From Polaromonas sp. (lineage in GTDB: Bacteria; Pseudomonadota; Gammaproteobacteria; Burkholderiales; Burkholderiaceae_C): a stretch of DNA of 64,000 bases. Position numbers and translations under genes: made by a program. Below the pieces are notes generated by a model, which was not told where the DNA came from, did no database searches, and saw only the letters and a list, made by a program, of their open reading frames with translations. Below, one piece after another: positions 1,871 through 64,000 of this stretch (position 1 is the first letter of the stretch; every line of letters starts with the position of its first letter). Where the stretch lies: NCBI RefSeq assembly GCF_010365105.1, contig NZ_JAAFGZ010000007.1, forward strand, positions 62,001 to 126,000, in the 5' to 3' direction.

Positions 1871-1951
1871 AATAAAAAATTAGGTGATTTATGCCTTCTT
1901 CGCATGTGGAGCGGGCATATGCTGCTATTTATTGGATAGCATCATATGCCC
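1871..1951 (-). repeat. Interspersed repeat copy 1, with a long imperfect hairpin
   Basis: Read on the minus strand this fits the window-wide repeat: GCTATCC..ATAGC, then GC..GCCC, TGCGAAGAAGGC and an A/T-rich tail. Its first part is also a hairpin: 1913-1928 pairs with 1936-1951 over 16 bp with one mismatch and a 7-base loop. It sits just beyond the 3' end of the acyl-CoA dehydrogenase gene and could end or protect that transcript, although no T tract follows the hairpin. Confidence 0.6.
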
Positions 1952-1970
1952 GTCAAAGCTCTCAAGGAAA

Positions 1971-3230
1971 TCAGCAGCCGCGCGTCACCGGCATCTCGAC
2001 CTCGCCCGGAATGACCAGGTGCTTGGCCAGTTCCAGCTTGGCCAGCGACGCACGGTGCACCTCATCCGGTCCGTCGGCCAGGCGCAGGGTGCGCTGGCTG
2101 GCGTAGGCATAGGCCAGCGGAAAATCATCCGACACGCCGCCCCCGCCGTGCGCCTGGATGGCCCAGTCGATGATCTGGCACGCCATGCTGGGTGCGACCA
2201 CCTTGATCATGGCGATCTGCGCCTTGGCCACCTTGTTGCCCACGGTGTCCATCATGTAGGCCGCGTTCAGGGTGAGCAGCCGGGCCTGCTCGATCATGCA
2301 GCGCGAATCGGCGATGCGTTCGCTCCACACCGATTGGCGGGCGATGGGTTTGCCGAAGGCCACGCGGCTGTTGAGTCGTTTGCACATGAGTTCCAGCGCG
2401 CGCTCGGCGATGCCGATGCTGCGCATGCAGTGATGAATGCGTCCGGGGCCGAGGCGGCCTTGGGCAATCTCGAAGCCGCGTCCTTCGCCCAGCAGCAAAT
2501 TGGCTGCCGGTACGCGAACATTGTCCAGGCGCACTTCCATGTGGCCGTGCGGCGCGTCGTCATAGCCAAAAACGCTCAAGGGCCGGATCACAGTAACGCC
2601 CGGTGAATTGGCGGGCACCAGGATCATCGACTGCTGCTCGTGACGGCCGGCCTCGGGATTGGTCTTGCCCATGACGATGTAAACAGCGCAGCGCGGATCA
2701 CCGGCGCCGGACGACCACCATTTGAGGCCGTTGATCACATAGTCGTCGCCGTCGCGCTCGATACGGCACTGCACATTGGTGGCGTCGGAGGAGGCGACTT
2801 CGGGCTCGGTCATCAGAAAGGCCGAGCGGATCTCGCCCTGGAGCAGCGGGTCCAGCCATTCGTCCTTATTGGCTTCCGAGCCGTAGCGGGCGATGGTTTC
2901 CATGTTGCCGGTGTCGGGCGCCGAACAGTTGAAAACCTCAGCGGCAAACGGCACCCGGCCCATGATTTCGCACAGCGGTGCGTATTCAAGGTTGGACAGG
3001 CCTTCGGGCGCGCGCGGCGACAGCGGCAGGAACAGGTTCCACAGCCCGGCGGCGCGCGCCTTGGGCTTGAGTTCCTCGATCAGCGTCGTGGGAACCCAGG
3101 CATTGCCCTTGGCCCGGTTTTCAGCGATCTCGCGGAAAAACCGCGCTTCGTTGGGGTAAATATGCTCATCCATGAACTTCAACAGGCGGGCCTGAAGCTC
3201 TTTTACTTTGGGGGTGTAGTCGAAGTCCAT
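1971..3230 (-). CDS. Acyl-CoA dehydrogenase (ACAD10/11-like)
   Basis: 419 residues, the full length for the family. Motifs include the FAD/substrate-binding segment [16 protein letters not shown], the mid-domain LKWWSSGA, and the C-terminal helical domain with [47 protein letters not shown]. It should oxidise an acyl-CoA to the 2-enoyl-CoA and pass electrons to ETF. An AGGAGA ribosome site precedes the ATG. Immediately upstream in the same direction is a small-molecule kinase of the aminoglycoside-phosphotransferase fold. The same two domains are fused in animal ACAD10/ACAD11 and are neighbours in the levulinate (lva) pathway of Pseudomonas, where a phosphorylated 4-hydroxyacyl-CoA is processed. 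Chain length and true substrate are not visible. Confidence 0.9.
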
Positions 3231-3327
3231 GAATATCTCCTGAAAGGGCGGGTTGTTATAGGGAAAGGCTTGCCGGAAAAATCGGCGGGTGGTCTGTCGC
3301 TCAGTGGATGATTCAGTCAGGGCGCAT

Positions 3328-4419
3328 TCAGGCTTGCGCCTTCAGCGCAAAATCCCAGGCCATCCTGGCCAGCAGCGGTGCGCCGGCGGCAGAACTGACC
3401 GCCTGAGCGCTGGACGCAGTGCCGGCTTCAACGCGCTTGGCGATGCCCTGCAGGATGGCGGCCAAGCGGAACAGGTTGTAGGCCAGGTAAAAGTTCCAGT
3501 CAGCCTTGAGCGCCCCGGGCGTCGTCAGGCCGGTGCGCTCGCAATACCGGGCGATGTATGCTTCCTCGGTCGGAATGCCCAGGCTGGCCACATCCAGGCC
3601 GCCTATGCCGCGAAAGGTGCCGGGCGGTATGTGCCAGGCCATGCAGTGGTAGCTGAAGTCGGCCAGCGGATGACCCAGCGTGGACAGCTCCCAGTCCAGC
3701 ACCGCCAGCACCCGGGGTTCTGTGGGGTGAAAAAGCAGGTTGTCCAGCCGGAAGTCGCCATGCACGATGGACACCATGGTTTCATCGCGGGCGCTGGCGG
3801 GAATGTTCTCCGGCAGCCATTGCATCAGGCTGTCCATCTCGGGGATGGGCTGGGTGACGGATGCCTGGTACTGCTTGCTCCAGCGGCCGATCTGGCGTTC
3901 GAAATAGTTGCCGGGCTTGCCGTAGCCGGCCAGGCCGCGTCCGGCAAAATCGACCTTGTGCAGGGCTGCAATGACGCGGTTCATCTCGCCGTAGATTTCG
4001 CCGCGCTCAAGGGGCGTCATGCCGGGAAGGGACTGGTCCCACAGCACGCGCCCTTCGACAAACTCCATGACGTAGAAAGCGCGGCCAATGACGGATTCGT
4101 CTTCGCACAGGCAGAACATCCTTGGCACCGGAACGGCCGTGCCCTGCAGGCCCTGCATCACCCTGAATTCGCGCTCGACCGCATGCGCCGATGGCAGCAG
4201 CTTGGCGACCGGGCCGGGCTTGGCGCGCATCACGTAACTGGCACCAGGCGTGATCAGTTTGTAGGTTGGATTGGACTGACCGCCCTTGAAAATCTCGACA
4301 TTCAGCGAGCCGCTGAAGCCTTCCAGGTGCTGACTCAGGTAAGTGCCGAGCGCTTCAGTGTCAAATGCCTGGCCGGCGGTCACGGCCCGGGTGCCGATGA
4401 AATGGTCAAAATTGCTCAT
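3328..4419 (-). CDS. Phosphotransferase (APH-fold) paired with acyl-CoA dehydrogenase
   Basis: 363 residues from MSNFDHFIG, chosen because an AAGGAG ribosome site lies just upstream; the open frame continues further 5' but overlaps the Crp-family gene. Motifs: the N-lobe [10 protein letters not shown] and [23 protein letters not shown], catalytic loop [14 protein letters not shown], and metal-binding [15 protein letters not shown]. This is the kinase domain seen in ACAD10/11 and LvaA-like proteins, which phosphorylate a hydroxyacyl group so that it can be eliminated. With the dehydrogenase gene next to it, a role in catabolism of 4-hydroxy fatty acids or similar compounds is a reasonable inference, not a demonstrated function. 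Confidence 0.85.
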
Positions 4420-5173: not shown

Positions 5174-5488
5174 GGTCTGTCTTTTGGGTGACTAACAAGT
5201 GTTGCATTGTCGCTTTAGCGACCTGCGGCGGAATTGCCTGCTGTCGCATGGGTGTCGCCTTGCCAGCAAAGCAATGGCCCGGCTCGAGCCGGAATCCTGC
5301 AGGCGCGGCTCTGTCAATCTTTAGCCGGTGGCAAGGTCAGGTCAATCGTGAAAACCAGCAAGATCGGATTGCCAGTGCTTGCGCTACTGGCATGCAGCCA
5401 GAATGACGGTAAAAACCCAATTTTTAATAAAAATTGGCTGTTTGCGCTTGCTGTGTATGCGCAAGCAGCTATTGAATCAGGAGCAATA
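5174..5488. other. Non-coding gap containing the regulator's 5' region and repeat copy 2
   Basis: About 315 bases between the start of the Crp-family gene and the stop of the enoyl-CoA hydratase gene, both on the minus strand. The half near 5417-5493 is a repeat copy. The rest, near 5174-5400, should contain the promoter of the regulator. I see no convincing gene in it. Confidence 0.5.
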
Positions 5489-5493
5489 CTAGC
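5417..5493 (-). repeat. Interspersed repeat copy 2 (best full-length intergenic copy)
   Basis: On the minus strand it reads GCTAG, spacer, CAATAGCTGCTTGCGC, an 11-base spacer, GCGCAA, GCC, then an A/T-rich perfect inverted repeat: CCAATTTTT and AAAAATTGG with a 3-base loop at 5417-5437. The TAG inside the first GCTAG is the stop codon of the enoyl-CoA hydratase gene, so the repeat directly abuts that coding region. Confidence 0.75.
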
Positions 5494-6268
5494 GATAAAT
5501 CGGCAAGCGTTTTTGCAAAAATGCCTCAATGCCTTCGCCGCCATTGGCGTGGTGCAGGTTGCGAACGAAGTGGTTGCGTTCGCTGTCCAGTTGCTGGCTC
5601 AGGGTGTTGGCCGGCGCGTCGTTGATCAGGTCCTTGATGCTGGCCAGCACATTCGGTGCGCGCGCGTTGAGTCGAGCGGCCAATACCAGCGCTTCACCGA
5701 CCGCGCCGCCGGCAACCGTGACGCGGTTGACCAGACCCAACTCGTGCAGTCGCCCGGCGCTGATGCGTTCGGCCCCCATGAGCAGTTCGCTGGCCAGGGC
5801 GCGGGGCAGCGCGCGCGCAAGGCTCCAGCTGCCGCCGCCATCGGGCGACAGTGCCACGGTGCTGTAGGACATGACAAACACGGCGTTGTCGGCGGCGACG
5901 ATGAAGTCGCAAGCCAGCGCCAGCGAAAAGCCCGCACCGGCTGCAGCCCCTTCGACCGCCGCAATCACCGGCTTGGGATAGGTGCGAATGGCCTCGATCC
6001 AGTTGTGCAGCGCCTCGATGCTCTGCGCCTGCACTTCGGGCGACAGCCGCCGGTTGGCCTGCAGCCGCGGAAGGCTGCCGCCGGCGCAAAACATGCTGCC
6101 TTCGCCGGTGATCACCACGCTGCGGATTTCCGGGTTGTTCTCGGCGGCGTTCAGCGCTTCGATGCCGGCGGCATACATGTCGGGACCTAGCGCATTCTTG
6201 TGTTCCGGGTTGCTCAGCGTCAGGATGAGCGTGCCGCTTTCACTGGTGCTTTTCAATGCGCCGGACAT
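5489..6268 (-). CDS. Enoyl-CoA hydratase/isomerase family protein
   Basis: 259 residues of the crotonase fold. Oxyanion-hole segments are MFCAGGSLP and GAAAGAGFSLALACDFIVAA. The first catalytic-Glu position of classical hydratases is not conserved in the way seen in mitochondrial enoyl-CoA hydratase; the active-site stretch ALSPDGGGSWSL has an Asp-containing DGGGS, as in isomerase or PaaG-like members. It likely hydrates or isomerises an enoyl-CoA in the same degradation route as the neighbouring dehydrogenases. It begins one base after the 3-hydroxyacyl-CoA dehydrogenase stop, so the two are translationally coupled. The stop codon lies in a repeat copy. Confidence 0.85.
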   Translation of the reverse strand: MSGALKSTSESGTLILTLSNPEHKNALGPDMYAAGIEALNAAENNPEIRSVVITGEGSMFCAGGSLPRLQANRRLSPEVQAQSIEALHNWIEAIRTYPKPVIAAVEGAAAGAGFSLALACDFIVAADNAVFVMSYSTVALSPDGGGSWSLARALPRALASELLMGAERISAGRLHELGLVNRVTVAGGAVGEALVLAARLNARAPNVLASIKDLINDAPANTLSQQLDSERNHFVRNLHHANGGEGIEAFLQKRLPIYR

Positions 6269-10366: not shown

Positions 10367-11353
10367 ATGAAAAAACAACTACATCCTGTAAAACGTCGCA
10401 AACTGGTGATTTTGGGAACCGGCGGAACCATTGCCGGAAAAGCTGCCCATGCTTCTGACAACATCGGCTACACCGCTGCACAGGTGGGCATAGACCAGCT
10501 GCTCGCAGCCATTCCTGCGCTGGCCGCAAGCGGTTTGATCATCAGTGAACAGGTGAGCCAGATCGACAGCAAGGACATGAGCTTTGACGTGTGGGCGCGA
10601 CTCGCTGCCCGCGTGCGTCATTTTCTTGCGGATGACGATGTCCAGGGCATCGTCATCACGCACGGCACGGACACGCTGGAGGAAACGGCTTTTTTCCTCC
10701 AGCTGACATGCCAGCCGGCCAAGCCGGTGGTGCTTACCTGCGCCATGCGTCCAGCCACCGCGCTGGTGCCAGATGGCCCGCAAAACGTGATGGACGCCGT
10801 GGCGGTCGCCCGTCATCCAGAGGCCTGCGGCGTGGTGGCCGTCTGCGCCGGAACGGTACACAGTGCGATGGATGTGCAAAAAGTACACCCCTACAGACTC
10901 GATGCCTTCAGTTCCGGTGATGCCTGCCCTGTGGGCTATGTTGAGGAAGGCAAGCTCAGATTGTTAAGAAATTGGCCAGTTCCGCAGGCTGGTATTGCCT
11001 GCGAAGCTATTGAAAAAGTAGCAACCTGGCCCCGCGTCGAGATTGTCATGAATTACGCAGGCGCGAGCGCTCTCACAGTCCAGGCACTGGTCGATCAGGG
11101 CGTGCGGGGTCTGGTGGTAGCCTGCACAGGCAATGGCACGATTCATGAAGACCTGCAAGCCGGTTTGCTCAGTGCGCAGGCTGCCGGGGTGCGGGTTGTG
11201 CGATCGACGCGCTGCCCTGATGGCCGCATTTTGCCGCTGCCAGGCAATACGATTGCAGATTCGCAGGGTCTCAGTCCGGTCAAGGCCAGGATCGCGCTGA
11301 TGCTTGATTTGATTACTGAAGACCAACGGCCTTCAGCCGCCGGGCAGACATAA
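10367..11353 (+). CDS. L-asparaginase (type I/II asparaginase-glutaminase family)
   Basis: 328 residues from [11 protein letters not shown]. An earlier in-frame ATG at 10331 would put the SOS box inside the gene, so the later start is preferred. The two catalytic threonines are in [10 protein letters not shown] and in [15 protein letters not shown], with the Asp of HGTD and a downstream Lys (MRP..). It hydrolyses asparagine to aspartate and ammonia. No clear signal peptide is present, so it is probably cytoplasmic. The segment encoded by 10961-11022 ([20 protein letters not shown]) falls on an in-frame copy of the window's interspersed repeat. The stop codon overlaps the edge of the adk terminator. 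Confidence 0.9.
10961..11022 (-). repeat. Interspersed repeat copy 3, in frame inside the asparaginase gene
   Basis: On the minus strand it reads GCTAC, spacer, CAATAGC, then CGC, TGCGGAACTGGCCAATTT and an A/T-rich end, matching the family in order and spacing. It is read in frame on the plus strand as part of the asparaginase and introduces no stop. Confidence 0.65.
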
Positions 11354-23092: not shown

Positions 23093-23161
23093 GCTACCAA
23101 AAAAGTAGCTGCCAGCGCCCGTGTTACCTGCGGAAAAGGCCTATTTGATTAAAAATCTTGG
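23093..23161 (+). repeat. Interspersed repeat copy 4
   Basis: GCTACC, spacer, AGTAGCTGCCAGCGCCCG, a short spacer, then TGCGGAAAAGGCCTATTT and an A/T-rich AAAATC end. It fills the gap between the clpA terminator and sbcB and ends 14 bases before the sbcB ATG. Confidence 0.75.
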
Positions 23162-23174
23162 AAAAAACCAGCCC

Positions 23175-24617
23175 ATGGATTCCCACACCTTTCTCTGGCA
23201 TGACTACGAAACCTTTGGCCTGAATCCGCGGCGCGACCGGCCGGCGCAGTTTGCCGGCATTCGCACCGATGCCGAACTCAATGAAATCGGCGAGCCCCTG
23301 ATGGTCTACTGCCAGCCGGCCAACGACTACCTGCCGGACCCGGCGTCCTGCGTCCTGACCGGCATCACACCGCAGCATTGCCTGGCGCAGGGTGTGCCCG
23401 AGCACGCCTTCGCCGCGCAGATCGAGCAGGCGCTGGCGCTGCCCGGCACGATTGGCGTGGGCTACAACACCATCCGGTTTGACGACGAGGTGACGCGCCA
23501 CCTGTTCTGGCGCAACCTGATCGACCCGTATGCTAGAGAATGGCAGAACGACTGCGGCCGCTGGGACTTGCTTGACGTGGTGCGCATGGCCTATGCGCTG
23601 CGTCCCGACGGCATTCAGTGGCCGCTGAAGGACGATGGCAAGCCCAGCTTCAGGCTCGAAGACCTGGCGCGGGCCAATGGCCTGATGCATGAGACCGCCC
23701 ACGATGCGCTGTCGGATGTGCGCGCCACGATTGCCTTGGGCCGGCTGATCCGCACGGCGCAGCCCAAACTGTTCGACTTTTGCCTGGGGCTGCACAAGAA
23801 GGCCCGGGTACTAGCCGAACTGGGTCTGCCGGCGACGGCGCAAATGTCCAGGCCTTTCTTGCATGTCTCGGGCATGTTTTCCTCTGAACGAGGTTGTCTG
23901 GCCATCATGTTTCCGCTGGCCACCCATCCGTCGAACAAGAACGAAGTGCTGGCCTGGGACCTGGCGTACGACCCGAGCGAGTTGTCGCTGCTCGACGTGG
24001 CGACGCTGCGCCTGCGGCTGTTCAGCAAATCAGCCGACCTGCCCGAAGGTGTGCTGCGTCTGCCGATCAAGTCGGTGCACCTGAACAAGTCACCCATGGT
24101 CGTACGTAATCTACAGACATTGACGTCCACCATGGCCGCGCGCTGGGGAGTGGACAAGGAAAAGGCGCTGCGCCATGCCGAAATCGCCGCCGGCCTGCCC
24201 GACATGAGCGCGCTCTGGTCCGAGGTGTTCCGGCATCCGGCATCGGACACACCCGATGTCGATGAAAACCTGTATGGCGGCTTCATTGGCAACGAGGACC
24301 GCCTCAGGCTGAACCAGTTGCGTGAACTGTCAGCCGATGAACTGGCGCACAGCCGGATGGGGTTTGACGACGAGCGCTTGCCTGAACTGGTGTTTCGCTA
24401 CCGCGCCCGCAATTTTCCGCAAACCCTTAGTCCGGAAGATTCTGAGCGCTGGGAAGCGCACCGGGCCGCGCGACTGCTCGAAGGCGAGGGCGGTGCGCGC
24501 AATGTCGATGCGCTGTTTGAAGAAATTGACGCCCTGGCCGAAACCGCCGACGAGCGGGCAGAGGCGATTCTGGGCGCCTTGTATGACTATGCCGAGTCAA
24601 TTGCGCCGGAACTCTAG
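23175..24617 (+). CDS. sbcB: Exodeoxyribonuclease I
   Basis: 480 residues from MDSHTFLWHDYETFG. An earlier Met would add 18 residues encoded within a repeat copy, so it was rejected. DEDD exonuclease residues: Asp10 and Glu12 (HDYETFG), Asp in FDDEVTRHLFWRN, and His/Asp in HETAHDALSDVRATI. The SH3-like and helical C-terminal domains specific to ExoI follow (KSPMVVRNLQTL, YGGFIGNEDRLRL). It degrades single-stranded DNA 3' to 5' in recombination and mismatch repair. Confidence 0.93.
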   Translation: MDSHTFLWHDYETFGLNPRRDRPAQFAGIRTDAELNEIGEPLMVYCQPANDYLPDPASCVLTGITPQHCLAQGVPEHAFAAQIEQALALPGTIGVGYNTIRFDDEVTRHLFWRNLIDPYAREWQNDCGRWDLLDVVRMAYALRPDGIQWPLKDDGKPSFRLEDLARANGLMHETAHDALSDVRATIALGRLIRTAQPKLFDFCLGLHKKARVLAELGLPATAQMSRPFLHVSGMFSSERGCLAIMFPLATHPSNKNEVLAWDLAYDPSELSLLDVATLRLRLFSKSADLPEGVLRLPIKSVHLNKSPMVVRNLQTLTSTMAARWGVDKEKALRHAEIAAGLPDMSALWSEVFRHPASDTPDVDENLYGGFIGNEDRLRLNQLRELSADELAHSRMGFDDERLPELVFRYRARNFPQTLSPEDSERWEAHRAARLLEGEGGARNVDALFEEIDALAETADERAEAILGALYDYAESIAPEL

Positions 24618-24630
24618 AAAACCTGTAGTT

Positions 24631-24698
24631 GCTATTGAATAAATAGCTGAATACGCCGGTGGGATATGCGCAAATGGCCTGAATGTCTTAAGTTTTAG
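24631..24698 (+). repeat. Interspersed repeat copy 5
   Basis: GCTATTG, spacer, AATAGCTG, then ATATGCGCAAATGGCC and an A/T-rich end with TTAAGTTTTA. Its tail contains the complement of the stop codon of the convergent glutathione transferase gene (24695-24697). Confidence 0.7.
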
Positions 24699-27923: not shown

Positions 27924-27966
27924 GCTATCATTTTTTTATGATATAAAAACCGTGGCCTATTTGTGC
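27924..27966 (+). repeat. Interspersed repeat copy 13 (degenerate)
   Basis: GCTATCATTTTTTTATGAT followed by GTGGCCTATTTG; the TGCG.AA block is missing. The GGCCTATTT part contains the complement of the stop codon of the membrane-protein gene at 27957. Weak call. Confidence 0.3.
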
Positions 27967-31569: not shown

Positions 31570-31876
31570 CGTTCCGGTTTTTCTGTCATTGCGGGCTGGA
31601 ACCGGACACCATAGCGCTCAGATCAGGGGACTGGCATGCGTTCGCTCTGAAAAACGACTTTTTGGCATGAAAAATGGTTTTTGCGCAGGCTGCATATGCG
31701 ATTGCAGCTATTAATTTGTTAGCAAAATTGCTGATTTTTTGCATGCAGTGTTTGCCAGTGATGGTGTTTGGTGCATGCCTGCAACCGGAGATGCGGCACC
31801 CGTTGGAAGCCGGGTCAGGCCCGGATGCCGGTTTTTCTTTTTTGGCATGATGGCCCGGCCACCGCCACGGGCGGGC
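31570..31876. other. Convergent intergenic region tex/CoA-transferase
   Basis: About 307 bases with no convincing gene. It holds repeat copy 7 at 31659-31723. No clear terminator hairpin for tex could be seen outside the repeat. Confidence 0.5.
31659..31723 (-). repeat. Interspersed repeat copy 7
   Basis: On the minus strand it reads GCTAACAA, TTAATAGCTGC, a spacer with GCATATGC, CTGCGCAAAAACC and an A/T tail ATTTTTCATGCC. Intergenic, 90 bases past the tex stop. Confidence 0.7.
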
Positions 31877-37212: not shown

Positions 37213-38052
37213 TCAAACAACGAAGGAGATAGAAGAAGCTACAGGAATTTCATCTGCAGATTTATGAAAATGCGTCTGTTCTTCCATGTCAATCCGCAGG
37301 ACTTTGTCCTGAATTGGTTCCAGCATCCTGCTGGCTACCAGAATCGTGCTGCTGCGCGTGCCATAGCCAAGGTCAGGAAACTGCACAAATGCACTGGACA
37401 GGGCCGCTTCCATAGCCTCGCGAGATGCAGTTTTCGGCACATCGTGAGTCGGGGCTCGAGCACGATCACCGAGTGCTGCCCAGAGCGGGTCTTGCCATGA
37501 ATCATCGTATGCAATGGCACCCTGTTCCAACGACGCCCTCAAAGCGTTTTTTAATGCGAGTGTCTTGGGCCACGGTGTATCGAGCGCTGCATTCGAAAGC
37601 CCGTAAACACCAGGAGCCAGTGTTTCGAAATGCAGCCCTGAAGAAGACGCAAGCGATCTGTTCGTCATCCATGTCCAGCCATTTCGCTGCACATCACCCA
37701 GCACCAGGTTGAATCCGCCATAGCGCTGGCTGTCCTTTTCAAGCAGGGATGCAAATGCTGCGGCATCGCTGTGGCTTTCAAGCCAGCGTGTCACAAGTTC
37801 ACCCCGCGAAAACGCAGCAACTTTCGGCTCGGCTTCGCGCACATTGGTGAGGAATGCCACCCGCCCGGCAGGTGTCATTCCCAGCCAGGTCCCGCCTGCG
37901 CGCAGATCGCGTCCGGAAATAATTTCCTGCCCGCCGGGCGTTTGCCAGCGGTCCAGCGGCAGCGTCGGACGGTCCAGGAATTCATCACGATTGGAGGCAA
38001 TCACCAAAGGAAAGCGTTGCGAAACGCCGATGGCAAACGCAATCAGGCACAT
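37213..38052 (-). CDS. NRDE (TANGO2-like) family protein
   Basis: 279 residues. It begins MCLIAFAIGVSQRFPLVIASNRDEFLDRPTLPLDRW; the Cys2 and the N-R-D-E run define the family, which includes human TANGO2. It continues with ISGRDLRAGGTWLGMTPAGRVAFLTNVRE and GFNLVLGD. The family is linked to haem or lipid handling in animals; bacterial function is unclear. The Cys2 position recalls N-terminal nucleophile hydrolases. A 27-base gap separates it from ygfZ upstream, so they may be co-transcribed. Confidence 0.88.
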   Translation of the reverse strand: MCLIAFAIGVSQRFPLVIASNRDEFLDRPTLPLDRWQTPGGQEIISGRDLRAGGTWLGMTPAGRVAFLTNVREAEPKVAAFSRGELVTRWLESHSDAAAFASLLEKDSQRYGGFNLVLGDVQRNGWTWMTNRSLASSSGLHFETLAPGVYGLSNAALDTPWPKTLALKNALRASLEQGAIAYDDSWQDPLWAALGDRARAPTHDVPKTASREAMEAALSSAFVQFPDLGYGTRSSTILVASRMLEPIQDKVLRIDMEEQTHFHKSADEIPVASSISFVV

Positions 38053-38079: not shown

Positions 38080-39039
38080 TCAGATATCTTCAAGCAAAGG
38101 GTAGGGCAGCGGCAGCAGTGCCAGGGCCGGTCCGGCCGCGTTGCCCAGGGACAGGCGCTTTTCCCCGGGATGCGCTGCTGCATCTGCCGCTGCAGCGGTC
38201 TGAATCGACACGATCGCATCGAAGCCACCCGCTGGATGCGCGGCGCAGGCAGCCACCAGACCGCAAGGCTGGTCGTTGTCTTGCGCATAAAATACTTCCT
38301 GCCCTGGCGCAGGCGCCGCATCGGCGTCGCTATGAACCAGATACGCTCGGCGCTTGAGCGTGCCGCGAAACTGGCTTCGGGCAACAATTTCCTGTCCGGG
38401 GTAACAGCCTTTCTTGAAATTCACGCCGCCGACCGACTCATAGTTGAGCATTTGCGGCACAAACGACTCGAAAATCGGCTGGCTGATCATGGCAATTCCC
38501 GATTGCACTTCAAGCCAGTTCCACACATCCAGGTCAATGGGCTCCCCTTCAGGCACCCGGGATGCGGTCGGCGCGCACCACATTGCCCGCGCCTGGCCGG
38601 CGCCTGGATAGAGAAAAATCAGGTTTGCCTCATCAATATCGACCTTGGTCCATGCCCGTTCAGCGCTGGATGCTACAGAATCAATAGCGGTTCCCGTGAG
38701 ACCATACAGCAGAAAATCGTCAGTGGCATCGCTGAGTTTTGCCTTTGCGCGCATCACAAACATCGACAGCCGCTTGAGCGTCGCGCCCAAGAGGTCAAGG
38801 CTGCACACCAGCAGGACTTCTTCCGGGCTGCGCTTGAATAGGACAAAACTGGCCTGCATCCGCCCCTTGGCATTGCAAAAGGCCGCGAGCCGGGCCTGCG
38901 TCGGTTCCAGCAGCGCAATGTCTTGTGTCAACTGGCCCTGCAGGAACTTGACGGCGTCTTCGCCGACGGCGCGGATGATCCCGAGATGCGTCAGCTTGAC
39001 GACCCCGGAAATTTGAGGGACTGAGCGGGTCATGGTCAT
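38080..39039 (-). CDS. ygfZ: Folate-binding protein YgfZ/GcvT-like
   Basis: 319 residues from MTMTRSVPQIS. The signature KGCYPGQEIVARSQFRG contains the conserved Cys of the YgfZ family. GEDAVKFLQGQLTQDI is the typical N-terminal folate-binding region, and the C-terminal barrel follows. It is needed for the activity of some Fe-S enzymes, such as MiaB. Around 38672-38720 (DSVASSAE region) there is a weak repeat-like copy. Divergent from mltG across 85 bases. A long upstream extension of the frame is antisense to mltG and was rejected. Confidence 0.93.
   Translation of the reverse strand: MTMTRSVPQISGVVKLTHLGIIRAVGEDAVKFLQGQLTQDIALLEPTQARLAAFCNAKGRMQASFVLFKRSPEEVLLVCSLDLLGATLKRLSMFVMRAKAKLSDATDDFLLYGLTGTAIDSVASSAERAWTKVDIDEANLIFLYPGAGQARAMWCAPTASRVPEGEPIDLDVWNWLEVQSGIAMISQPIFESFVPQMLNYESVGGVNFKKGCYPGQEIVARSQFRGTLKRRAYLVHSDADAAPAPGQEVFYAQDNDQPCGLVAACAAHPAGGFDAIVSIQTAAAADAAAHPGEKRLSLGNAAGPALALLPLPYPLLEDI
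38672..38720 (+). repeat. Interspersed repeat copy 8 (short), inside ygfZ
   Basis: GCTACAGAATCAATAGC with an AAAATCG end; the middle TGCG.AA block is not recognisable. It is transcribed antisense as part of ygfZ and stays in frame there. Confidence 0.4.
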
Positions 39040-48732: not shown

Positions 48733-49692
48733 TCAATGCTGATGTCCCCAAAGCAAAAATGCGTCTCGACCATCGACTGCAAGGGTAACAGGCAGACCCA
48801 CTGGCAGAACAACCTTGGTGGCGACATGCCCGAAAGGAAGTCCGGTAAGGACTTGCGCAGTCACCTGCCTTTTTAACCACGCGATCACACTGGCCATCTT
48901 GTAGCCTTTGTCGTGTGCCACGAGTTTGTACTGACTGAACTGGCCAAATATGATTGCTTTTTGCTGTGCAAGTATGCCAGCCTGTAGCAGTTGGGCGAGC
49001 ATACGTTCTACCCGGTAGGGATGCTCGCCCACATCTTCAATGAATAAGATGCCATTTTTTATGACGGGAAGATAAGGTGTTCCGACCAGCGAAGCCAGCA
49101 TCGCCAAATTACCGCCCCACAGCACAGCATGATCAATGCTGTATGGATCATTTACAACGTCTGCGCTTGACGGAACGTCTTCTCCAGCTATTTTTTTAAT
49201 AGCTGTTTTTGGTAATCGCCAACCACTACCCTCCCCTTGCCCTGTCACCAGATCTCCAAAACAGGCTTCCATGATGTCATCAGCGCCTGCTGCAGCGCCA
49301 AAATCTTCACCCAGCGCAGGCCCCGCCCAACTGACTGCGCCTGTCTTTGCCAATAGCGCCATCTGGAATGCGGTGAAGTCGCTAAACCCGACAAATTGGG
49401 TACCACAGCCTACAGCTTTTGCAACGGCCTGGTAATCAATGGCGGGAAGAATACGTGTAAGGCCATAGCCGCCACGTGAAATCAGCGCCACATCGGCGCC
49501 GCTGGCTGAAGCCCTGTGTATGGCCGCAAGTCGTGTTTCATCGTTCCCTGCGAAGCGCTGATGGCTTGCCAAGGCAGCCTCATCGATCTCCACTTCATAA
49601 CCCAGTGCTGTCAGGCGCTTAACACCTCTTTTAAAAGCCGACTTGTCGCGCACAGCACTGGAGGGAGAGTAAATATAGATATGTTTTTTCAC
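48733..49692 (-). CDS. ldcA: LD-carboxypeptidase (muramoyltetrapeptide carboxypeptidase)
   Basis: 319 residues. The family motif ALISRGGYGLTRILPAIDY and the nucleophile region FVGFSDFTAFQMALLAKTGAVSWAGP contain the catalytic Ser (GFSDF). The C-terminal His is in GLPFGHVATKVVLPVG. LdcA removes the terminal D-Ala from cytosolic tetrapeptides during peptidoglycan recycling. In the middle (KTAIKKIAGEDVPSS) a weak copy of the repeat lies in frame. The upstream gap with A/T-rich sequence should hold its promoter. Confidence 0.92.
   Translation of the reverse strand: MKKHIYIYSPSSAVRDKSAFKRGVKRLTALGYEVEIDEAALASHQRFAGNDETRLAAIHRASASGADVALISRGGYGLTRILPAIDYQAVAKAVGCGTQFVGFSDFTAFQMALLAKTGAVSWAGPALGEDFGAAAGADDIMEACFGDLVTGQGEGSGWRLPKTAIKKIAGEDVPSSADVVNDPYSIDHAVLWGGNLAMLASLVGTPYLPVIKNGILFIEDVGEHPYRVERMLAQLLQAGILAQQKAIIFGQFSQYKLVAHDKGYKMASVIAWLKRQVTAQVLTGLPFGHVATKVVLPVGLPVTLAVDGRDAFLLWGHQH
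49187..49216 (+). repeat. Interspersed repeat copy 9 (partial), inside ldcA
   Basis: GCTATTTTTTTAATAGCTG followed by TTTTTGG; only the first half of the repeat is clear. In ldcA it encodes KTAIKKIAG without breaking the frame. Confidence 0.4.
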
Positions 49693-49843: not shown

Positions 49844-51082
49844 TTAGCGCTTGCTGTGAAAAGTCCAGAAACTTTCAGTTTCGCGAAAAATATCCCGATT
49901 TTCTGCATTGTCAAATCCCTGCGCCATAACCGACAGTACAAGCGATCCCGTCCGATAGCTCTGCCCGGGGAATGGTGCATCGCATCCTGGATCGATTGAA
50001 TGGCTGGGCTGAATCTTTTTTAATTTGCTTGAATGAATCAAACAATGATCGTTATCTATGCGGCGTCTTGCTTGATTCCACACTAGAAGCCCCCCGTTTA
50101 AGGTTTGCTCATCTTCGGTAAAACTGCCCTCTACACTAATGCGCTGCAGACCTCTATAACGCAGAGGTGCGGCCATCGGCAGCGTCAAACCCAGCAGGCT
50201 TTGCCGTTCTGGAAGCACCAGCACTATGTTGCGCAGGTCAAGAGCCTCAACCAGTTCAACCATAATCTGGCGATGCCTTGCCAACGTATGAAAAGCGGCC
50301 TTCTTGGGCTTGTCGCTTTTCCCGAATCCGATCAAATCCGGTACTACGACCCGGTCTCCGGATTCAAGCAAAGAGGAAATCAATTGTCGAAACCCGTAAC
50401 TCCAGCCACTAAAGTCATGCAGGCACAAGTAGGTAATCGACTCCTGCTTGGCCGCATCTCCAGACGAAACCATTTTCTCGTCAAGATAATGCATTCGCAA
50501 ACGGTCAAGGGCGGGCAAGTCGCTGCGATAGTTTGGATTCCAGGGATAGTCAGGCAAACCATCGAAGGCAGCATCGGGCGTTCGCAGTGCGTCATCGCGC
50601 AAGGGATGACGCCGCCGTGCCGATGCACGCTGCTCAACCCGGCGCTGGCGAAAAAAATCCTGCATCAGTGCGCAGCTCGCTTCGGCCAGCATTCCGCCCT
50701 GCCACTCGGTTCGGTGGTTGAGCGCAGTTGTTGCAAACAGGTTAACAACGGAACCGGCCGCCCCGGTCTTGGGTTCAGGGGCGCCAAATACCACACGTTT
50801 GAGCCGCGCGTTCAGGATGGCGCCACTGCACATCGCGCACGGCTCCAGCGTGACAAACAATTCGCACTCGTTCAGCCGATAGTTTCCGAGAATTTTTGCT
50901 GCAGCCCGCAAGGCGACGATCTCGGCATGGGCTGTTGGATCATGGCCACTCACCAGGGCATTGCGACCAGTGGCAATTACTTGGCCTTGCCTCACAAGCA
51001 CAGCCCCGACGGGAACCTCCCCTGACTTAGCCGCCATTCTGGCCTCATCAAGGGCCAGTGCCATAAAATCAGCATCAGTCAT
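49844..51082 (-). CDS. tadA: tRNA adenosine deaminase TadA fused to a degenerate haloalkane-dehalogenase-like hydrolase domain
   Basis: 412 residues. Residues 1-150 are a complete TadA: HAE at 52-54 (zinc His and catalytic Glu) and PCAMC at 81-85, with SVVNLFATTALNHR. It makes inosine at tRNA wobble position 34. Residues about 175-410 are an alpha/beta hydrolase resembling haloalkane dehalogenase: YLCLHDFSGWSYGFRQLI, VVVPDLIGFGKSDKPKKAAF, DLRNIVLVLPERQSLLGLTLPMA. At the nucleophile elbow, where dehalogenases have QDWGG, this protein has PERQS, so the second domain is probably not a normal hydrolase. The fusion seems genuine: one open frame with no break. Confidence 0.93.
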   Translation of the reverse strand: MTDADFMALALDEARMAAKSGEVPVGAVLVRQGQVIATGRNALVSGHDPTAHAEIVALRAAAKILGNYRLNECELFVTLEPCAMCSGAILNARLKRVVFGAPEPKTGAAGSVVNLFATTALNHRTEWQGGMLAEASCALMQDFFRQRRVEQRASARRRHPLRDDALRTPDAAFDGLPDYPWNPNYRSDLPALDRLRMHYLDEKMVSSGDAAKQESITYLCLHDFSGWSYGFRQLISSLLESGDRVVVPDLIGFGKSDKPKKAAFHTLARHRQIMVELVEALDLRNIVLVLPERQSLLGLTLPMAAPLRYRGLQRISVEGSFTEDEQTLNGGLLVWNQARRRIDNDHCLIHSSKLKKIQPSHSIDPGCDAPFPGQSYRTGSLVLSVMAQGFDNAENRDIFRETESFWTFHSKR

Positions 51083-51084
51083 TT

Positions 51085-51139
51085 GCTACTTAAAGTATAG
51101 CTATAAACCGAATAGGGTCGTGCGTAAGTGCCATTTTTC
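51085..51139 (+). repeat. Interspersed repeat copy 10
   Basis: GCTACTTAAAGTATAGC, then TGCGTAAGTGCCATTTTTCA. The tail overlaps the complement of the stop codon of the 81-residue protein gene, and the first base is 3 past the tadA start. It fills the short gap between these genes. Confidence 0.65.
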
Positions 51140-51383
51140 ACTCTCCATCGACAGCTCTCGGCCGTTGCATCGCGGCTTCGAGCGACTGCCTGACGTGTTC
51201 CTGAATCTGCTGACTCTGCAGCTGAGGATTTTTGGCACCGGACAATCCTGTCGGCTCAACATTAGTCGGAGGGGCAAGCACGGGGTTTTGCGCTCCCGTC
51301 ACAGCCCCAATCTGCTTTTTTGCCAGTAGCCCAACGACAGCCAGCACGATCAACAAACTTATCATCCCGAAAACCAGACGCAT
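51138..51383 (-). CDS. Small membrane-anchored hypothetical protein
   Basis: 81 residues. One N-terminal transmembrane helix (VFGMISLLIVLAVVGLLAKKQIG) is followed by a soluble Gln/Pro-rich part ending HVRQSLEAAMQRPRAVDGE. No family recognised; such single-helix proteins are common before guaA/tadA in this bacterial group as far as I recall. It starts one base after the FMN-binding gene's stop. Its own stop falls inside repeat copy 10. Confidence 0.7.
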   Translation of the reverse strand: MRLVFGMISLLIVLAVVGLLAKKQIGAVTGAQNPVLAPPTNVEPTGLSGAKNPQLQSQQIQEHVRQSLEAAMQRPRAVDGE

Positions 51384-59425: not shown

Positions 59426-60559
59426 CTACAGGCTCCGCAGCGGATGCGCCTCGGCAGCCCAAGGGCTGATGAAAAACGCATCGGCCATGCCGGGCTTCAC
59501 GTCCTCGATGCGCGCCGGCTTCCATTGCGGCTGATAGTCCTTGTCCACTGCCAGCGCGCGGATTCCCTCGACGGTTTCGCTTTGCGCCCCGGGGCGCAGG
59601 TGAAAGCACTGATGCACCATGTCCCGCTCCATGCGCAGGTCATCGGCCAGCGTCATGCTGCGGGCGCGGCGAATCTGCTCCAGCGTCACATGCAGCATCA
59701 GCGGCGAGCGCTTGCGCAGCACACCGGCCATCCGGCTTGCCCAACGGTCGTCCCTGGCTTTTTCCAGCGCATCGACGATGTGCTTGACCCGCAGCAATGA
59801 GAAAAATGCATCAATATGGCCTGTTTCGCAGGCCGGACGGGCACTGTCCGCTATGAATTTTGATGCAATCCATTGATCAGCTTCAGCGGCCGATGCCCAA
59901 GGCGTGGTACCCAGTTCCGCCCACAGCGCCGGCAGGTCACCCGCATCCAGTTTTACATCAGCCAGTCCGTAGCCGATGGCCTCGTCGGCGCCAATGACTT
60001 CGCCGGTCAGCGCCAGGTATTCGCCCACATGGCCGGGGCAACGGCTCAGGAAATAGCCGCCGCCCACGTCAGGGAACAGGCCGATATTCGTCTCGGGCAT
60101 GGCCATTTTGGTGCGCTCGGTGACGATGCGTACCCGCGCGCCCTGGCTCAGGCCCATGCCGCCGCCCATCACCACGCCGTCCATGAAGGCGATGAAAGGC
60201 TTGGAATAGGTCTGGATCAGGTGGTTGAGCTGGTATTCATCGGTGAAGAAGTCGTCCAGCGCAGGATCGCCGGCCAGCGCTGCCTGGTGGAAAAACCTGA
60301 TGTCGCCGCCGGCACAAAAACCGCCGAACAGGCTGTCAGGCGTTCCGGGGCGTCCCAGCTTGTTGGTGCCGCGAATCGCCACCAGCCGCACCTCCGGGTC
60401 GTCCTGCCAGGCGCGCAGGATGGCGAGCAATTCGCGCACCATGGGCAGCGACAGGGCATTGAGCGCCTTGGGCCGGTTCAGCGTGATCAGTCCGGCATTG
60501 CCCTGGCGCTCGGCCAGCACGTCACCGGCCGCATCGATTTTGTTGATTTCTGTCGTCAT
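59426..60559 (-). CDS. 3-hydroxyisobutyryl-CoA hydrolase-like crotonase
   Basis: 377 residues from MTTEINKIDAAG with GGAG upstream; ATG overlaps the transporter stop. Motifs: NRPKALNALSLPMVRELLAIL, FCAGGDIRFFH, FIAFMDGVVMGGGMGLSQGA, MAMPETNIGLFPDVGGGYFLSRCPG; the Glu of PETNIG and Asp of FPDVGG are the catalytic pair of HIBCH. It removes CoA from 3-hydroxyisobutyryl-CoA in valine breakdown, or a related hydrolysis. The segment IADSARPACETGHIDAFF coincides with an in-frame copy of the interspersed repeat. Confidence 0.9.
   Translation of the reverse strand: MTTEINKIDAAGDVLAERQGNAGLITLNRPKALNALSLPMVRELLAILRAWQDDPEVRLVAIRGTNKLGRPGTPDSLFGGFCAGGDIRFFHQAALAGDPALDDFFTDEYQLNHLIQTYSKPFIAFMDGVVMGGGMGLSQGARVRIVTERTKMAMPETNIGLFPDVGGGYFLSRCPGHVGEYLALTGEVIGADEAIGYGLADVKLDAGDLPALWAELGTTPWASAAEADQWIASKFIADSARPACETGHIDAFFSLLRVKHIVDALEKARDDRWASRMAGVLRKRSPLMLHVTLEQIRRARSMTLADDLRMERDMVHQCFHLRPGAQSETVEGIRALAVDKDYQPQWKPARIEDVKPGMADAFFISPWAAEAHPLRSL
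59801..59866 (-). repeat. Interspersed repeat copy 11, in frame inside the HIBCH-like gene
   Basis: On the minus strand: GCATCAAAATTCATAGC, GTGCCCG, spacer, CCTGCGAAACAGGCC, then ATTGATGCATTTTTC. The order and spacing fit the family. It lies in frame in a variable linker of the enzyme. Confidence 0.55.
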
Positions 60560-61431
60560 GCTCTCTGTCTCCATCCAATCAATTCATTCACCACCAGCGC
60601 GCCAATGACCAGCGAACCGCCGGTCAGCACACTGGAACCTGGCACCTCGCCGGCACCCACCCAGGCCAGCAGGATGCCAAAAATCACTTCCAGCAAGCCC
60701 AGTAGCGCCACCTCGGGCGCCTTGAGCACTCCGGCGCACAGCACCGCCAGCACACACGGAATCGCCAGTTGAAAAAGTCCCAGTGCCGCCAGCAGGACGA
60801 TGTCGTGCGTTGTCGCCGAAAAAGGAAGCGCCAACGGCAAGGTGGCCAGCGACGACAGCGCCGCCCCGATCAGGACCGCAGGCACCAGATTGATTTTCTG
60901 GCCATGGGCGCCGCCATGCTGCACCACCGTCCAGTTGCAGGCGCCTGCTACCGGCACCATCAGCGCCACCAGCGTCCCAGCCAGCTGGCTGCCCAGGTCC
61001 ATCTGGCCGCCATACATCCAGACAATGCCGGCGCTGGCCAGCGCAATCGCAACCCAGGTCCGCGCGGGAATCCTGTGGCCGATGAAGACACGAGCCATCA
61101 GGGCCGTGATAAAGGGACCGAGCGCCAGCGTCACCAGCACATTGGCCACGGTGGTCAGCGTCAGCGCCACCATGAAGGCGGTGAACATGATGCTCCAGCA
61201 AACGCCGGACAACCACAGCGCCTTGCCGCCATGACGGATTTTCGAGAAAACCGCCCGCCCCTGAAACAAAGGCAGGATCACCAGCAGCGACGCCAGCGTG
61301 AAAAAGCTGCGCCAGAAGGTTACTTCAAAGCTGCGCGCCGCCTCCAGCTGCCGCGTCACCACACCAGCCATGGACCATAGCAGCGTCACCAGCACCATCA
61401 CGGCCACCGCGCGGGAATGCGTCAAGTTCAT
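60556..61431 (-). CDS. DMT-superfamily (EamA) transporter
   Basis: 291 residues from MNLTHSRAVAVMVLV, with AGGTG upstream. About ten hydrophobic helices in two EamA repeats: the first with WSMAGVVTRQLEAARSFEVTFWRSFFTLASLLVIL, the second with VPVAGACNWTVVQHGG and LGLLEVIFGILLAWVGAGEVPG. Exports or imports small metabolites; substrate unknown. Its stop overlaps the HIBCH-like gene start (ATGA), so the two are one transcript. Confidence 0.9.
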   Translation of the reverse strand: MNLTHSRAVAVMVLVTLLWSMAGVVTRQLEAARSFEVTFWRSFFTLASLLVILPLFQGRAVFSKIRHGGKALWLSGVCWSIMFTAFMVALTLTTVANVLVTLALGPFITALMARVFIGHRIPARTWVAIALASAGIVWMYGGQMDLGSQLAGTLVALMVPVAGACNWTVVQHGGAHGQKINLVPAVLIGAALSSLATLPLALPFSATTHDIVLLAALGLFQLAIPCVLAVLCAGVLKAPEVALLGLLEVIFGILLAWVGAGEVPGSSVLTGGSLVIGALVVNELIGWRQRA

Positions 61432-61453: not shown

Positions 61454-61480
61454 AAAAAGGCCACTGCATGCAGTGGCCTT
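61454..61480 (-). terminator. Rho-independent terminator of typA
   Basis: AAGGCCACTG and CAGTGGCCTT, 10-bp perfect stem around CATG (the whole 57-80 stretch is a palindrome). On the minus strand T5 follows. 58 bases past the typA stop and just upstream of the transporter gene. Confidence 0.85.
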
Positions 61481-61537
61481 CAACGAGTATTTCAGGCATT
61501 CAAGCCTGATCCACTGAACGGCCGAAGCCGTTCAAGC

Positions 61538-63352
61538 TCAGCGGCCTGAGCGCTTGCGCTCGCTTTCAGTCAGGTAACGCTTGCGCAGGCGAATCGACTT
61601 GGGCGTGATTTCAACCAGTTCGTCGTCCTCGATGAACTCGACGCCGTATTCCAGCGTGCATTCGATCGGCGGCGTGATCTTGATCGCGTCTTCCTTGCCG
61701 GACACGCGGAAGTTGGTCAGCTGCTTGGTGCGCGTGGCGTTGACCACCAGGTCGTTGTCGCGGCTGTGGATGCCGACGATCATGCCTTCGTACACCGGAT
61801 CGTTGGCCTTGACGAACATGCGGCCGCGGTCGTCGAGCTTGCCCAGTGCGTAGGTGAAGATTTCACCGGCGTCCATGGAAATCAGCACGCCATTCTTGCG
61901 TCCGCCAATGTCGCCCTTGTGCGGCTCGTAGCAGTCAAAAATATTGGCGATCAGGCCGGAGCCGCGCGTCAAATTCAGGAATTCGTTGGTAAAACCGATC
62001 AGGCCACGCGCCGGAATGCGGTATTCCAGGCGCACGCGGCCACGGCCGTCCGGGTCCATGTTGACCAGCTCGCCCTTGCGCTCGCCAAGTGCCTGCATCA
62101 CGCCGCCCTGGTGCTGCTCTTCGATGTCGGCAGTCACCAGCTCGATCGGCTCATGCTTTTCACCATTCACGTCTTTCATCACGACGCGCGGCTTGGATAC
62201 AGCCATCTCAAAACCTTCGCGGCGCATGTTTTCCAGCAGGATGGTCAGGTGCAGCTCGCCCCGGCCCATGACTTCGAAAATGCCTTCTTCGTCGGTTTCC
62301 TTGACGCGCAGGGCGACGTTGTGCTGCAGTTCCTTTTGCAGGCGGTCCCAGATCTGGCGGCTGGTTACGTACTTGCCTTCGCGGCCGGCCAGCGGGCTGG
62401 TGTTGACGCAGAAATTCATGGTCAGCGTCGGCTCGTCAACCTTGAGCATGGGCAGCGGCATCGGGTTGACCGGGTCGGTGATGGTCACGCCAATGCCGAT
62501 GTCGGTCAGGCCGTTGATCAGCACGATTTCGCCGGGGCCGGCTTCGGTCGCCTGCACGCGCTCCAGGCCCTGGAAGGTCAGCACCTGGTTGACGCGGCCC
62601 TTGACAGGCTTGCCGTCCGGGCCTTCCATCACGACCACGTCCATCATCGGCCGGATCGTGCCCTGGCTGATGCGGCCCACGCCGATGCGGCCGACGAAGG
62701 TCGAAAAGTCGAGTGCAGAAATCTGCAGTTGCAACGGCGCGTCAGGATCACCCTTTTGGGCTGGCACGTGCTTGAGCACGGTGTTGAACAGGGCCGACAT
62801 GTCGGGACCCCACTGCTCGCCTTGCTCGCCTTCTTCCAGCGACGACCAGCCATTGATGCCCGAGGCATAGACCACGGGGAAATCAAGCTGTTCGTCGGTG
62901 GCACCGAGCTTGTCGAACAAGTCGAACGTGGCGTTGATCACCTTGTCAGGATTGGCGCCCGGCTTGTCCACCTTGTTCACCACCACGATGGGCTTGAGGC
63001 CCAGGGCCAGCGCCTTCTTGGTCACAAAGCGCGTCTGGGGCATGGGGCCTTCCTGCGCGTCGATCAGCAGCACGACGCCATCGACCATGGACAGCGCGCG
63101 TTCGACTTCGCCGCCGAAGTCGGCGTGGCCCGGGGTATCGACGATGTTGATGTGCGTGCCTTCCCAGGTCACGGCGCAGTTCTTGGCCAGGATGGTGATG
63201 CCACGCTCTTTTTCGATGGCGTTGTTGTCCATCACGACTTTTTCGTGGTCGGCGAAGGTGCCGGACTGGCGCAGCAACTGGTCGACCATGGTGGTCTTTC
63301 CATGGTCAACGTGGGCGATGATGGCGATGTTACGGATTTGTTTATGACTCAT
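61538..63352 (-). CDS. typA: Translational GTPase TypA/BipA
   Basis: 604 residues from [32 protein letters not shown]1 [10 protein letters not shown]3 [11 protein letters not shown]4 NKVDKPGA; domain II, an EF-G-like domain V and the family-specific C-terminal domain ([25 protein letters not shown]) follow. A ribosome-associated GTPase used in 50S assembly at low temperature and in stress. The ATG at 63352 is preferred over a longer frame. It follows truB by 37 bases and ends in a palindromic terminator. Confidence 0.97.
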
Positions 63353-63389
63353 GGTGGACTTTCTGGGAACTTGAAAAACGGTATTTGGA

Positions 63390-64000
63390 TTAATGTTGAA
63401 AAGAGCCGGCATCCGTGGGTTCAGAGGCTGCGGCCATGGAAACTGGCGTTAAAACTTCGGTCGCACACTGGGCTGATTGCAGGAGGTCCTGGACTTCAAC
63501 CGGGCTCAGCAAGCGCTGGGGAATCAACTCGTCGGCACAGATATGGGCAGAACCCAGAAATGCAGCGGGCTCGCTGCCATACACCTGCACCAGCGGTGCA
63601 TCGGCACCCCACTGGCCCCGGCGACGCAATCCGCTCAGGAAACGTCCTGCATTATCGGCGTCCAGCGTGACGGATGGGTAAGCGGCCACCAGCGACTGCG
63701 GCGGCAGCAAACAGGCATCGCGCTCGGCTTCGGTCATCGCTTCGAGCGCAGCCAGTGTCACGCATTGCGCAGCCACAAAACCTCCGGTTTCGATCCGGCG
63801 CAGCGAACCCAGGTGCGCGCCGCAACCGATGGCCTCGCCAATGTCTTCGCCGAGCGTACGAATATACGTTCCCTTGCTGCAGCTCACTATTATTTTAATA
63901 GCTGCTTGCGCCCGTGGATCATGCGCAATCGCCATATTTAGCTTGAAAATCGTGACGTGGCGGGCTTCCCGCTCGACCTCAATGCCCTTGCGGGCATATT
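63390..64000 (-). CDS. truB: tRNA pseudouridine(55) synthase TruB (partial, 5' end outside window)
   Basis: The visible part holds ~203 C-terminal residues: ARKGIEVEREARHVTIFKL, VSCSKGTYIRTLGEDIGEAIGCGAHLGSLRRI and the PUA-like C-terminus (AFLGSAHICADELIPQR). The catalytic Asp lies upstream, beyond the window. It makes pseudouridine 55 in the T arm of tRNAs. Between IFKLN and IVSCSKG the loop (MAIAHDPRAQAAIKI) matches an in-frame copy of the interspersed repeat. In E. coli TruB this loop is a few residues shorter. Confidence 0.95.
   Translation of the reverse strand, partial: YARKGIEVEREARHVTIFKLNMAIAHDPRAQAAIKIIVSCSKGTYIRTLGEDIGEAIGCGAHLGSLRRIETGGFVAAQCVTLAALEAMTEAERDACLLPPQSLVAAYPSVTLDADNAGRFLSGLRRRGQWGADAPLVQVYGSEPAAFLGSAHICADELIPQRLLSPVEVQDLLQSAQCATEVLTPVSMAAASEPTDAGSFQH
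63883..63952 (+). repeat. Interspersed repeat copy 12, in frame inside truB
   Basis: GCT, spacer, TAATAGCTGCTTGCGCCCG, spacer, ATGCGCAATCGCC, ATTT and an AAAATCG end. Nearly identical in its first half to intergenic copy 2 (AATAGCTGCTTGCGC) but inside the truB coding region, read in frame on the minus strand. Confidence 0.78.

Follow-up and report, generated by a model that had tools for sequence, protein, structure and literature searches.

The window analysed here, a stretch of 64,000 nucleotides from a Polaromonas sp. genome (contig NZ_JAAFGZ010000007.1, positions 62,001 to 126,000), carries copies of a dispersed DNA motif of about 55-65 bp. The analysis showed that the motif is widespread and position-constrained, that it evolves in place, and that its versions differ between related genomes. 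A preliminary description of the window had listed ten good copies with one shared order of blocks, some of them in frame within genes, and three weak ones, and had suggested a small mobile or structured element.

Copy number and architecture of the motif

A profile built from the ten good copies scored them at 36-54 bits in the window, against 13 bits for the best of 20 Markov-1 shuffles, and these copies are therefore real. With a genome-wide profile they scored 22-46 bits; six have minus-strand and four plus-strand orientation (Table 1). The search was extended to a sample of 864 kb, made up of the window and 800 kb of further stretches of the same genome. At E 1e-3 or better it returned 135-136 matches, which represent 134 distinct places, and a second counting method gave 131 copies. 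The density of one per 6.4 kb is close to the one per 5 kb or so claimed from the window, and extrapolation from the sample gives a genome-wide total of about 700, with the block order that the preliminary description had expected to recur hundreds of times. A single Markov-3 shuffle of the 864 kb had zero matches of at least 10 bits. A sequence-only model matched all 150 scored places among 3479 candidates in the genome, the weakest with an E value of 3.7e-8.

The consensus over 136 rows was TGCTAYTnAAWTnATAGCTGCTTGYGCMCGY..N7..TGCGCAAAAGGCCTWTTTGAY. The block order had been read correctly from the window: a dyad, GCTAY-N7-RTAGC, is followed 20 bp further on by a second block, TGCGnAA, and then by TTT, with a spacing that is nearly always fixed to the base. 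Constrained bases are spread in several blocks over about 55 bp, and some columns are invariant and others nearly random. Identity between copies in the 864 kb had a median of 58% and reached 83% in the best pair; no near-identical copies were present.

The dyad occurred 95 times at spacer 7 and 0-3 times at each of spacers 3-6 and 8-13. Five shuffles gave counts of 0-2, and 84 of the 95 dyads fell in profile copies. A hairpin loop should tolerate one base more or less and a protein dimer should not, and the rigid spacing was therefore read as that of a protein-bound DNA site. We infer that the motif is double-stranded DNA recognised by a protein.

Base pairing

The structured element of the preliminary description was not borne out. 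In the ten window copies, folded in search of a conserved hairpin, RNAalifold predicted seven pairs, none with compensatory changes on both sides, and in 131 copies it predicted no pair at all. The 20 column pairs with the strongest mutual information lay only one or two columns apart, and no convincing covariation was seen. Arm pairing was compared with that of re-dealt right arms for two putative hairpins and for shifted registers, in this genome, P. glacialis, another Polaromonas (G016) and a Xenophilus-like set; it did not exceed the re-dealt arms in 15 of 16 tests. The marginal remaining test was that of P. glacialis in a shifted register (0.608 vs 0.598), where only 15 of 500 re-deals paired as often as the real arms. 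Copies of this genome folded slightly better than shuffles (mean z -0.55 and -0.9). The Xenophilus-like set folded clearly better (mean z -2.7), and there the consensus is itself self-complementary. A search of the window at Rfam gathering thresholds returned no match. On the results from RNAalifold, mutual information, folding z-scores and re-dealt arms, conserved RNA structure was rejected for this genome.

Evolution in place

Tex encoded in the window is 93% identical to Tex of Polaromonas sp. CG_9.7 and of P. glacialis R3-9. The comparison with P. glacialis covered 880 kb, and the left and right flanks of each copy were mapped separately. Of the 134 copies of this genome, 73 could be placed in P. 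glacialis, where 62 places held a copy of at least 19 bits, three a weak copy and eight none. In the reverse direction 71 of 127 P. glacialis copies were placed here (60 with a copy, seven weak, four none). No clean 65-bp gap between intact flanks was found at the eight no-copy places inspected among the 12. At these, intergenic DNA had been replaced, the length differed, or the sequence had diverged at a similar length. Two places in P. glacialis were shorter, by 91 and 118 bp; these differences reach beyond the motif and may be gains or losses. An earlier count from long alignments (52 aligned copies, 48 orthologues) was biased against gaps and was used for divergence only.

Pfam confirmed the four genes in which copies had been reported, namely asparaginase (10961), Tex (30421), ECH_2/HIBCH-like (59801) and TruB (63883). 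HIBCH orthologues from 18 of 21 searched genomes were aligned by codon, the remaining three genomes giving paralogues only. The motif occupied the same codons with at least 26 bits in ten of the 18 (P. glacialis, G003, seven other Polaromonas and Simplicispira), and the encoded residues differed; three orthologues were weak (8-14 bits) and five had no motif. Among these five, JS666, G019, G020 and Limnohabitans align through the site without a gap, and Caenimonas has a gap of two codons. The motif thus occupies ordinary coding sequence and is not a tolerated insertion, contrary to what had been suggested from the in-frame copies. The coding segments concerned are also found in orthologues from other genomes, an outcome that the preliminary description had itself named as contrary to its proposal. 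Flank mapping and the HIBCH alignment together led us to reject a mobile element with target-site insertion. They also serve as a caution that a repeat resembling an in-frame mobile element can arise in place.

The asparaginase and tex copies sit in loops of variable length. An origin in place is likely for them also, but the case is less clean than in HIBCH. The Tex loop (window 30400-30510) lies between conserved blocks, and its length varies widely among Comamonadaceae, with or without the repeat.

Sequence constraint between species

In 48 orthologous pairs, columns of at least 1.5 bits differed in 12 of 493 comparisons (2.4%), whereas columns below 0.5 bit differed in 213 of 840 (25%). 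These pairs required a profile match on both sides, and four aligned pairs below threshold were omitted. When all 54 aligned P. glacialis copies were used and nothing was required of this genome, the corresponding values were 48/702 (6.8%) and 247/927 (27%). By our estimate, neutral decay with a one-sided choice of intact copies should leave about half the background divergence or more. The best-kept bases were GCT, TAGC and GCG. In the left arm of the second hairpin (columns 24-27), 50 of 192 comparisons differed, which is the background rate; a hairpin may thus be ancestral, but here it is not kept.

Single columns departed from the general pattern. Columns 7 and 42, near invariant bases, differed in 18 of 45 and 24 of 48 pairs, well above the 25% at other free positions. 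Column 8 is variable between copies yet conserved between orthologues (2 of 47 differ).

Versions and distribution among Comamonadaceae

Three versions of the second block were seen. This genome and P. glacialis have TGCGCAAAAGGCC, and G016 has GGGCTGGAGGCC, in 22 copies found in 122 kb. Xenophilus-like genomes, represented by 35 rows that come from five related and hence non-independent loci, have GCGCCCG-N5-CGGGCGCTGCAGG; the second block forms a good hairpin there, ahead of a T run. Sites were assigned to versions by models that leave out the site being judged. Versions differed between genomes at identical codons in both asparaginase and HIBCH. Among asparaginase orthologues of at least 13 bits, P. 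glacialis fitted the first version and nine others the second. HIBCH was mixed: it was nearer the second version in G012, G016, G017, G018 and Rhodoferax, and nearer the first in G002, G003, G014, G015, Simplicispira and Paracidovorax, with G013 even.

When 120 genomes of the family were searched with the model of this genome, 40 had a match at 1e-5, 25 had at least 20 matches of at most 41 scored, and 80 had none, although absence by this model can conceal another version. At least 150 matches each were found in P. sp. CG_9.7, P. glacialis, a metagenome-assembled genome (MAG), Xenophilus E41, Simplicispira and Paracidovorax. A Rhodoferax MAG had 97 and JS666 had four (among 150 scored); Variovorax J22R133, Limnohabitans T6-5 and Caenimonas had zero.

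Genomic placement

Genes were called with a simple gene caller. By midpoint 105 of the 134 copies were intergenic, in DNA that is 14.8% intergenic. In intergenic regions of at least 80 bp the number of copies per kb was 1.62 between convergent, 0.80 between co-directional and 0.22 between divergent genes. The median distance between an intergenic copy and the closest gene 3' end was 63 bp, compared with 175 bp for random intergenic positions. Orientation was free, both in co-directional intergenic regions (31 vs 29) and within genes (10 vs 17). Relative to local GC skew it was 64 vs 72 here and 79 vs 99 in 1.2 Mb of P. glacialis; a replication-strand polarity of the KOPS (FtsK orienting polar sequence) or Chi type was rejected, there being no clear bias in either genome. 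Column 1 fell on the third codon position in 23 of 27 copies within genes (15 antisense, 8 sense). From the consensus, GCT-AYT is read in these frames as Ala-Ile or Ala-Thr, and TAG stops are avoided.

No intergenic region of the 864 kb held two copies. Gaps below 1 kb between copies made up 4.7%, about half of the 10.6% in a matched null (P 0.01); this null was the stricter one, a looser null having given 20.8%. Polaromonas plasmid DNA was scanned over 200 kb (from pPNAP01, 150 kb out of 353, and from pA29BJ2, 50 kb out of 104; among the four stretches used, two had been preselected for matches) and contained three copies, where about 31 were predicted from the density in this genome, not in the hosts' chromosomes. 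In pPNAP01, a plasmid of P. naphthalenivorans, two copies (L274:36070-36125 and 37423-37478) flank an ATPase gene inside a BREX-2 system. A phage collection gave only short partial matches of one consensus.

The interval G000:C5:158623-204141 is 45.5 kb long and has no copy at all. Ten longer genes of the 36 called in it were scanned; nine fell into Pfam families, among them phosphonate, GDPD, CHAD/CYTH and HlyD, and none was phage-like.

Possible function and alternative explanations

Some 700 constrained sites per genome, with versions that vary between relatives, imply a sequence-specific reader. In its behaviour the motif is closest to DNA uptake sequences with dialects, and it would work like one. 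We infer this because it shows no insertion footprint in the HIBCH codons or the P. glacialis flanks and its key bases are constrained; because the dyad spacing is fixed while pairing is not kept and orientation is free; and because second-block versions differ between genomes, copies are scarce on plasmids and gaps below 1 kb are few. The dialects of Neisseriaceae uptake sequences, which are conserved within species and congruent with the core-genome phylogeny (PMC3630211), point the same way.

An uptake-type signal held near consensus by biased recombination is, on this analogy, the most likely mechanism, and we put it forward tentatively. Cells would preferentially take up DNA carrying the motif, and recombination would replace mutated copies with intact ones, so that hundreds of sites stay near consensus. 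Point mutation would create new sites at the 3' ends of genes and in coding loops that tolerate them, and a change in the preference of the receptor would make the sites shift together. With more hesitation we suggest that Comamonadaceae may use a long composite uptake signal with dialects, unlike the short motifs known, as a self-recognition code for DNA exchange. We know of no such code in this family; if there is one, the borders between dialects would show which bacteria are able to exchange DNA.

The DNA uptake sequences and uptake signal sequences (DUS/USS) resemble the motif in having at least hundreds of dispersed sites in both orientations, both intergenic and within genes, with species dialects (PMC3630211, PMC2346458, PMC12616744). 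The present copies (134 in 864 kb) are likewise dispersed, in either orientation and far above chance. DUS/USS differ in being more exact and more numerous and in length (10-12 bp), and their receptor is ComP or the predicted ComN, both minor pilins; it is for Pasteurellaceae that a minor pilin is predicted as uptake receptor (PMC12616744). Since its length is not that of the short motifs, we do not file the motif as an uptake sequence.

Several observations weigh against an uptake-type signal. Uptake motifs known so far have more copies, are more exact and are much shorter, at 10-12 bp, or about 30 bp with A/T tails in Haemophilus. No uptake receptor was found, none having been sought by name. 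ComEC was present in 21 of 21 genomes and DprA in 120 of 120, with and without the motif, so that competence genes do not discriminate. A single literature search gave no title on natural transformation in Polaromonas. The spacing of copies overall was not more even than the null (P 0.41 for the coefficient of variation; P 0.11 for gaps below 2 kb). The copy-free stretch of 45.5 kb has ordinary genes, and its explanation as a mobile island was unsupported by the ten genes scanned. The match between version and group has exceptions, as HIBCH of G014 and G015, which are other Polaromonas, is nearer the version of this genome and that of G013 is even. The association of the motif with RAYT genes, described below, also counts here.

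In the main rival explanation a chromosome-organising protein, or another DNA-binding protein of global action, would bind the sites; ordinary selection would act site by site, and the versions would reflect changes in that protein. We regard this as possible but somewhat unlikely. Constraint on the primary sequence, the fixed-spacing dyad and free orientation fit it equally well, and so do the preference for gene 3' ends and the scarcity in divergent regions and on plasmids. Against it, some 700 sites would each have to be maintained by selection and, in other lineages, be shifted jointly. The analysis turned up no candidate protein, and there is no clear GC-skew bias. If the reader were a nucleoid protein, a code for chromosome-wide architecture has been missed; if it were an uptake receptor, natural transformation and species barriers would become testable in a large environmental family. 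Under either reading the motif could be used as bait for the protein. An RNA element at gene 3' ends, acting as a terminator or as an mRNA-stabilising hairpin, would account for the closeness of intergenic copies to 3' ends and for the hairpin before a T run in the Xenophilus-like genomes. Copies occur inside genes and in either orientation, folding here is weak without convincing covariation, and the window has no Rfam match, all of which makes this explanation very improbable. An intrinsic terminator, with hairpin and U run oriented with transcription, was rejected on the orientation counts (31 vs 29) and the weak folding.

It is also improbable, if slightly less so, that the copies are a family of the repetitive extragenic palindromic (REP) type, once spread by a RAYT (Y1) transposase, of which some positions were later kept for other reasons. 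REP elements with RAYT transposases are short, mostly intergenic and placed at 3' ends, and the motif is like them in its size, its intergenic and convergent placement and its closeness to gene 3' ends. The consensus includes the left arm of the second hairpin, yet this arm now diverges as fast as the background, which is the behaviour expected of a relic. A RAYT gene (PF01797) is present in this genome, in 11 of 11 named genomes and in 89 of 120 family genomes. Genomes rich in the motif have it more often (24 of 25, vs 52 of 80 motif-free genomes, p 0.0017, uncorrected for kinship), an association that speaks for a link, perhaps through shared ancestry alone. Among 13 RAYT loci, two (one each in G006 and Xenophilus) lie near a match at E 1e-3 or better, and the two shorter no-copy places in P. 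glacialis could be counted on the same side. Unlike REP elements, however, the motif has no transposition signature, no conserved hairpin and no RAYT gene reliably flanked by the repeat: the RAYT loci of this genome, P. glacialis and G001 have no match nearby at E 1e-3, that of this genome having only one of 7.3 bits. RAYT is found also in JS666, Variovorax, Limnohabitans and Caenimonas, with four, zero, zero and zero motif matches, and the rich genome G106 has no RAYT match. Spread of this kind is further opposed by the lack of a clean empty site among the places inspected, by the 83% identity of the best copy pair and by the gap-free alignment of four of the five motif-free HIBCH orthologues.

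The sole RAYT match above cut-off in this genome is L031:1501-1830 (G000:C63:152008-152337), in a frame of 253 aa; a second, fragmentary match exists. The 7.3-bit repeat match just downstream of it is very degenerate. Most other genomes had a single match, but repeat-rich G034 had 20 Y1-transposase matches, of which several share the same score and have split frames.

Relation to published repeats

A motif pair, ATAGCT(N)22CAAAAG, was reported by Tong and colleagues in 2017 from P. naphthalenivorans CJ2 as a potential novel motif, with no function stated in the accessible part of the report (PMC5217627). It had 125 copies there, 101 of them intergenic, 18 in genes and six overlapping, and 34 lay between convergent genes. 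In the 864 kb of this genome the pair had 11 exact matches, compared with 0 at a spacing of 21 and 1 at a spacing of 23. From the same words, distance and placement we take the CJ2 pair to be the inner part of the present motif. As far as the available part of the report goes, it was a word pair in one genome; neither the dyad nor the full length was given there, nor were conservation across species, evolution in place or versions. Acidovorax may have its own version in another pair given there, GCTTAT(N)5AAGCG of A. ebreus, which had zero matches in the 864 kb. No function of the motif was found in a literature search made largely without subscription journals.

The betaproteobacterial repeat element (BRE) is 75-91 bp long in Bordetella, usually intergenic with some copies wholly in genes, and is listed in Polaromonas too (PMC3110155). 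It differs from the motif by its average of 69% G+C, by some tandem loci and by at most 29 copies, those in JS666, where the motif had four matches among 150 scored. BRE is set apart by its base composition, its arrangement and its distribution.

Copies in the window

The copies recognised in the window are listed in Table 1. Of the three weak copies in the preliminary description, that at 49187 was retained as a genuine weak copy, on the strand opposite to that reading, and that at 27924 was noise (8.3 bits). The third, at 38672, scored 12.4 bits (E 0.007) on the minus strand.

Table 1. Copies of the motif in the window, with scores from the genome-wide profile.
Location of copy	Position	Strand	Score	Orthologues
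Intergenic	1883..1941	-	35.0 bits, E 6e-10	Orthologous copy in P. glacialis
Just downstream of enoyl-CoA hydratase gene 5489-6268(-)	5431..5485	-	43.6 bits	
Within asparaginase gene 10406-11353(+)	10968..11023	-	27.3 bits	P. glacialis, same codons; other Polaromonas, another version
At start of exonuclease gene (open reading frame 23121-24617(+), start codon uncertain)	23093..23150	+	43.7 bits	Orthologous in L073, L074, L075
Between convergent genes	24630..24688	+	43.6 bits	Orthologous in L073, L074, L075
Within tex 29197-31569(+), length-variable loop	30434..30487	-	38.5 bits	P. glacialis, degraded below threshold; present in L073, L075, L149, L142
About 100 bp downstream of tex	31667..31724	-	40.4 bits	
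Weak copy	49157..49203	-	18.6 bits, E 8.5e-5	
Upstream of deaminase-domain gene 49844-51082(-)	51084..51142	+	21.8 bits	Orthologous in P. glacialis
Within HIBCH-like gene 59426-60574(-)	59809..59860	-	34.9 bits	Same codons, at least 26 bits, in 10 of 18 aligned orthologues
Within truB 63390-64376(-), gene extends beyond window end	63887..63943	+	46.1 bits	P. glacialis orthologue 95% identical

The segment of the third weak copy, window 38651-38742, is apparently a decayed copy on the minus strand; P. jejuensis has a copy of 30.8 bits (L084:20711-20656) at what seems to be the same place.

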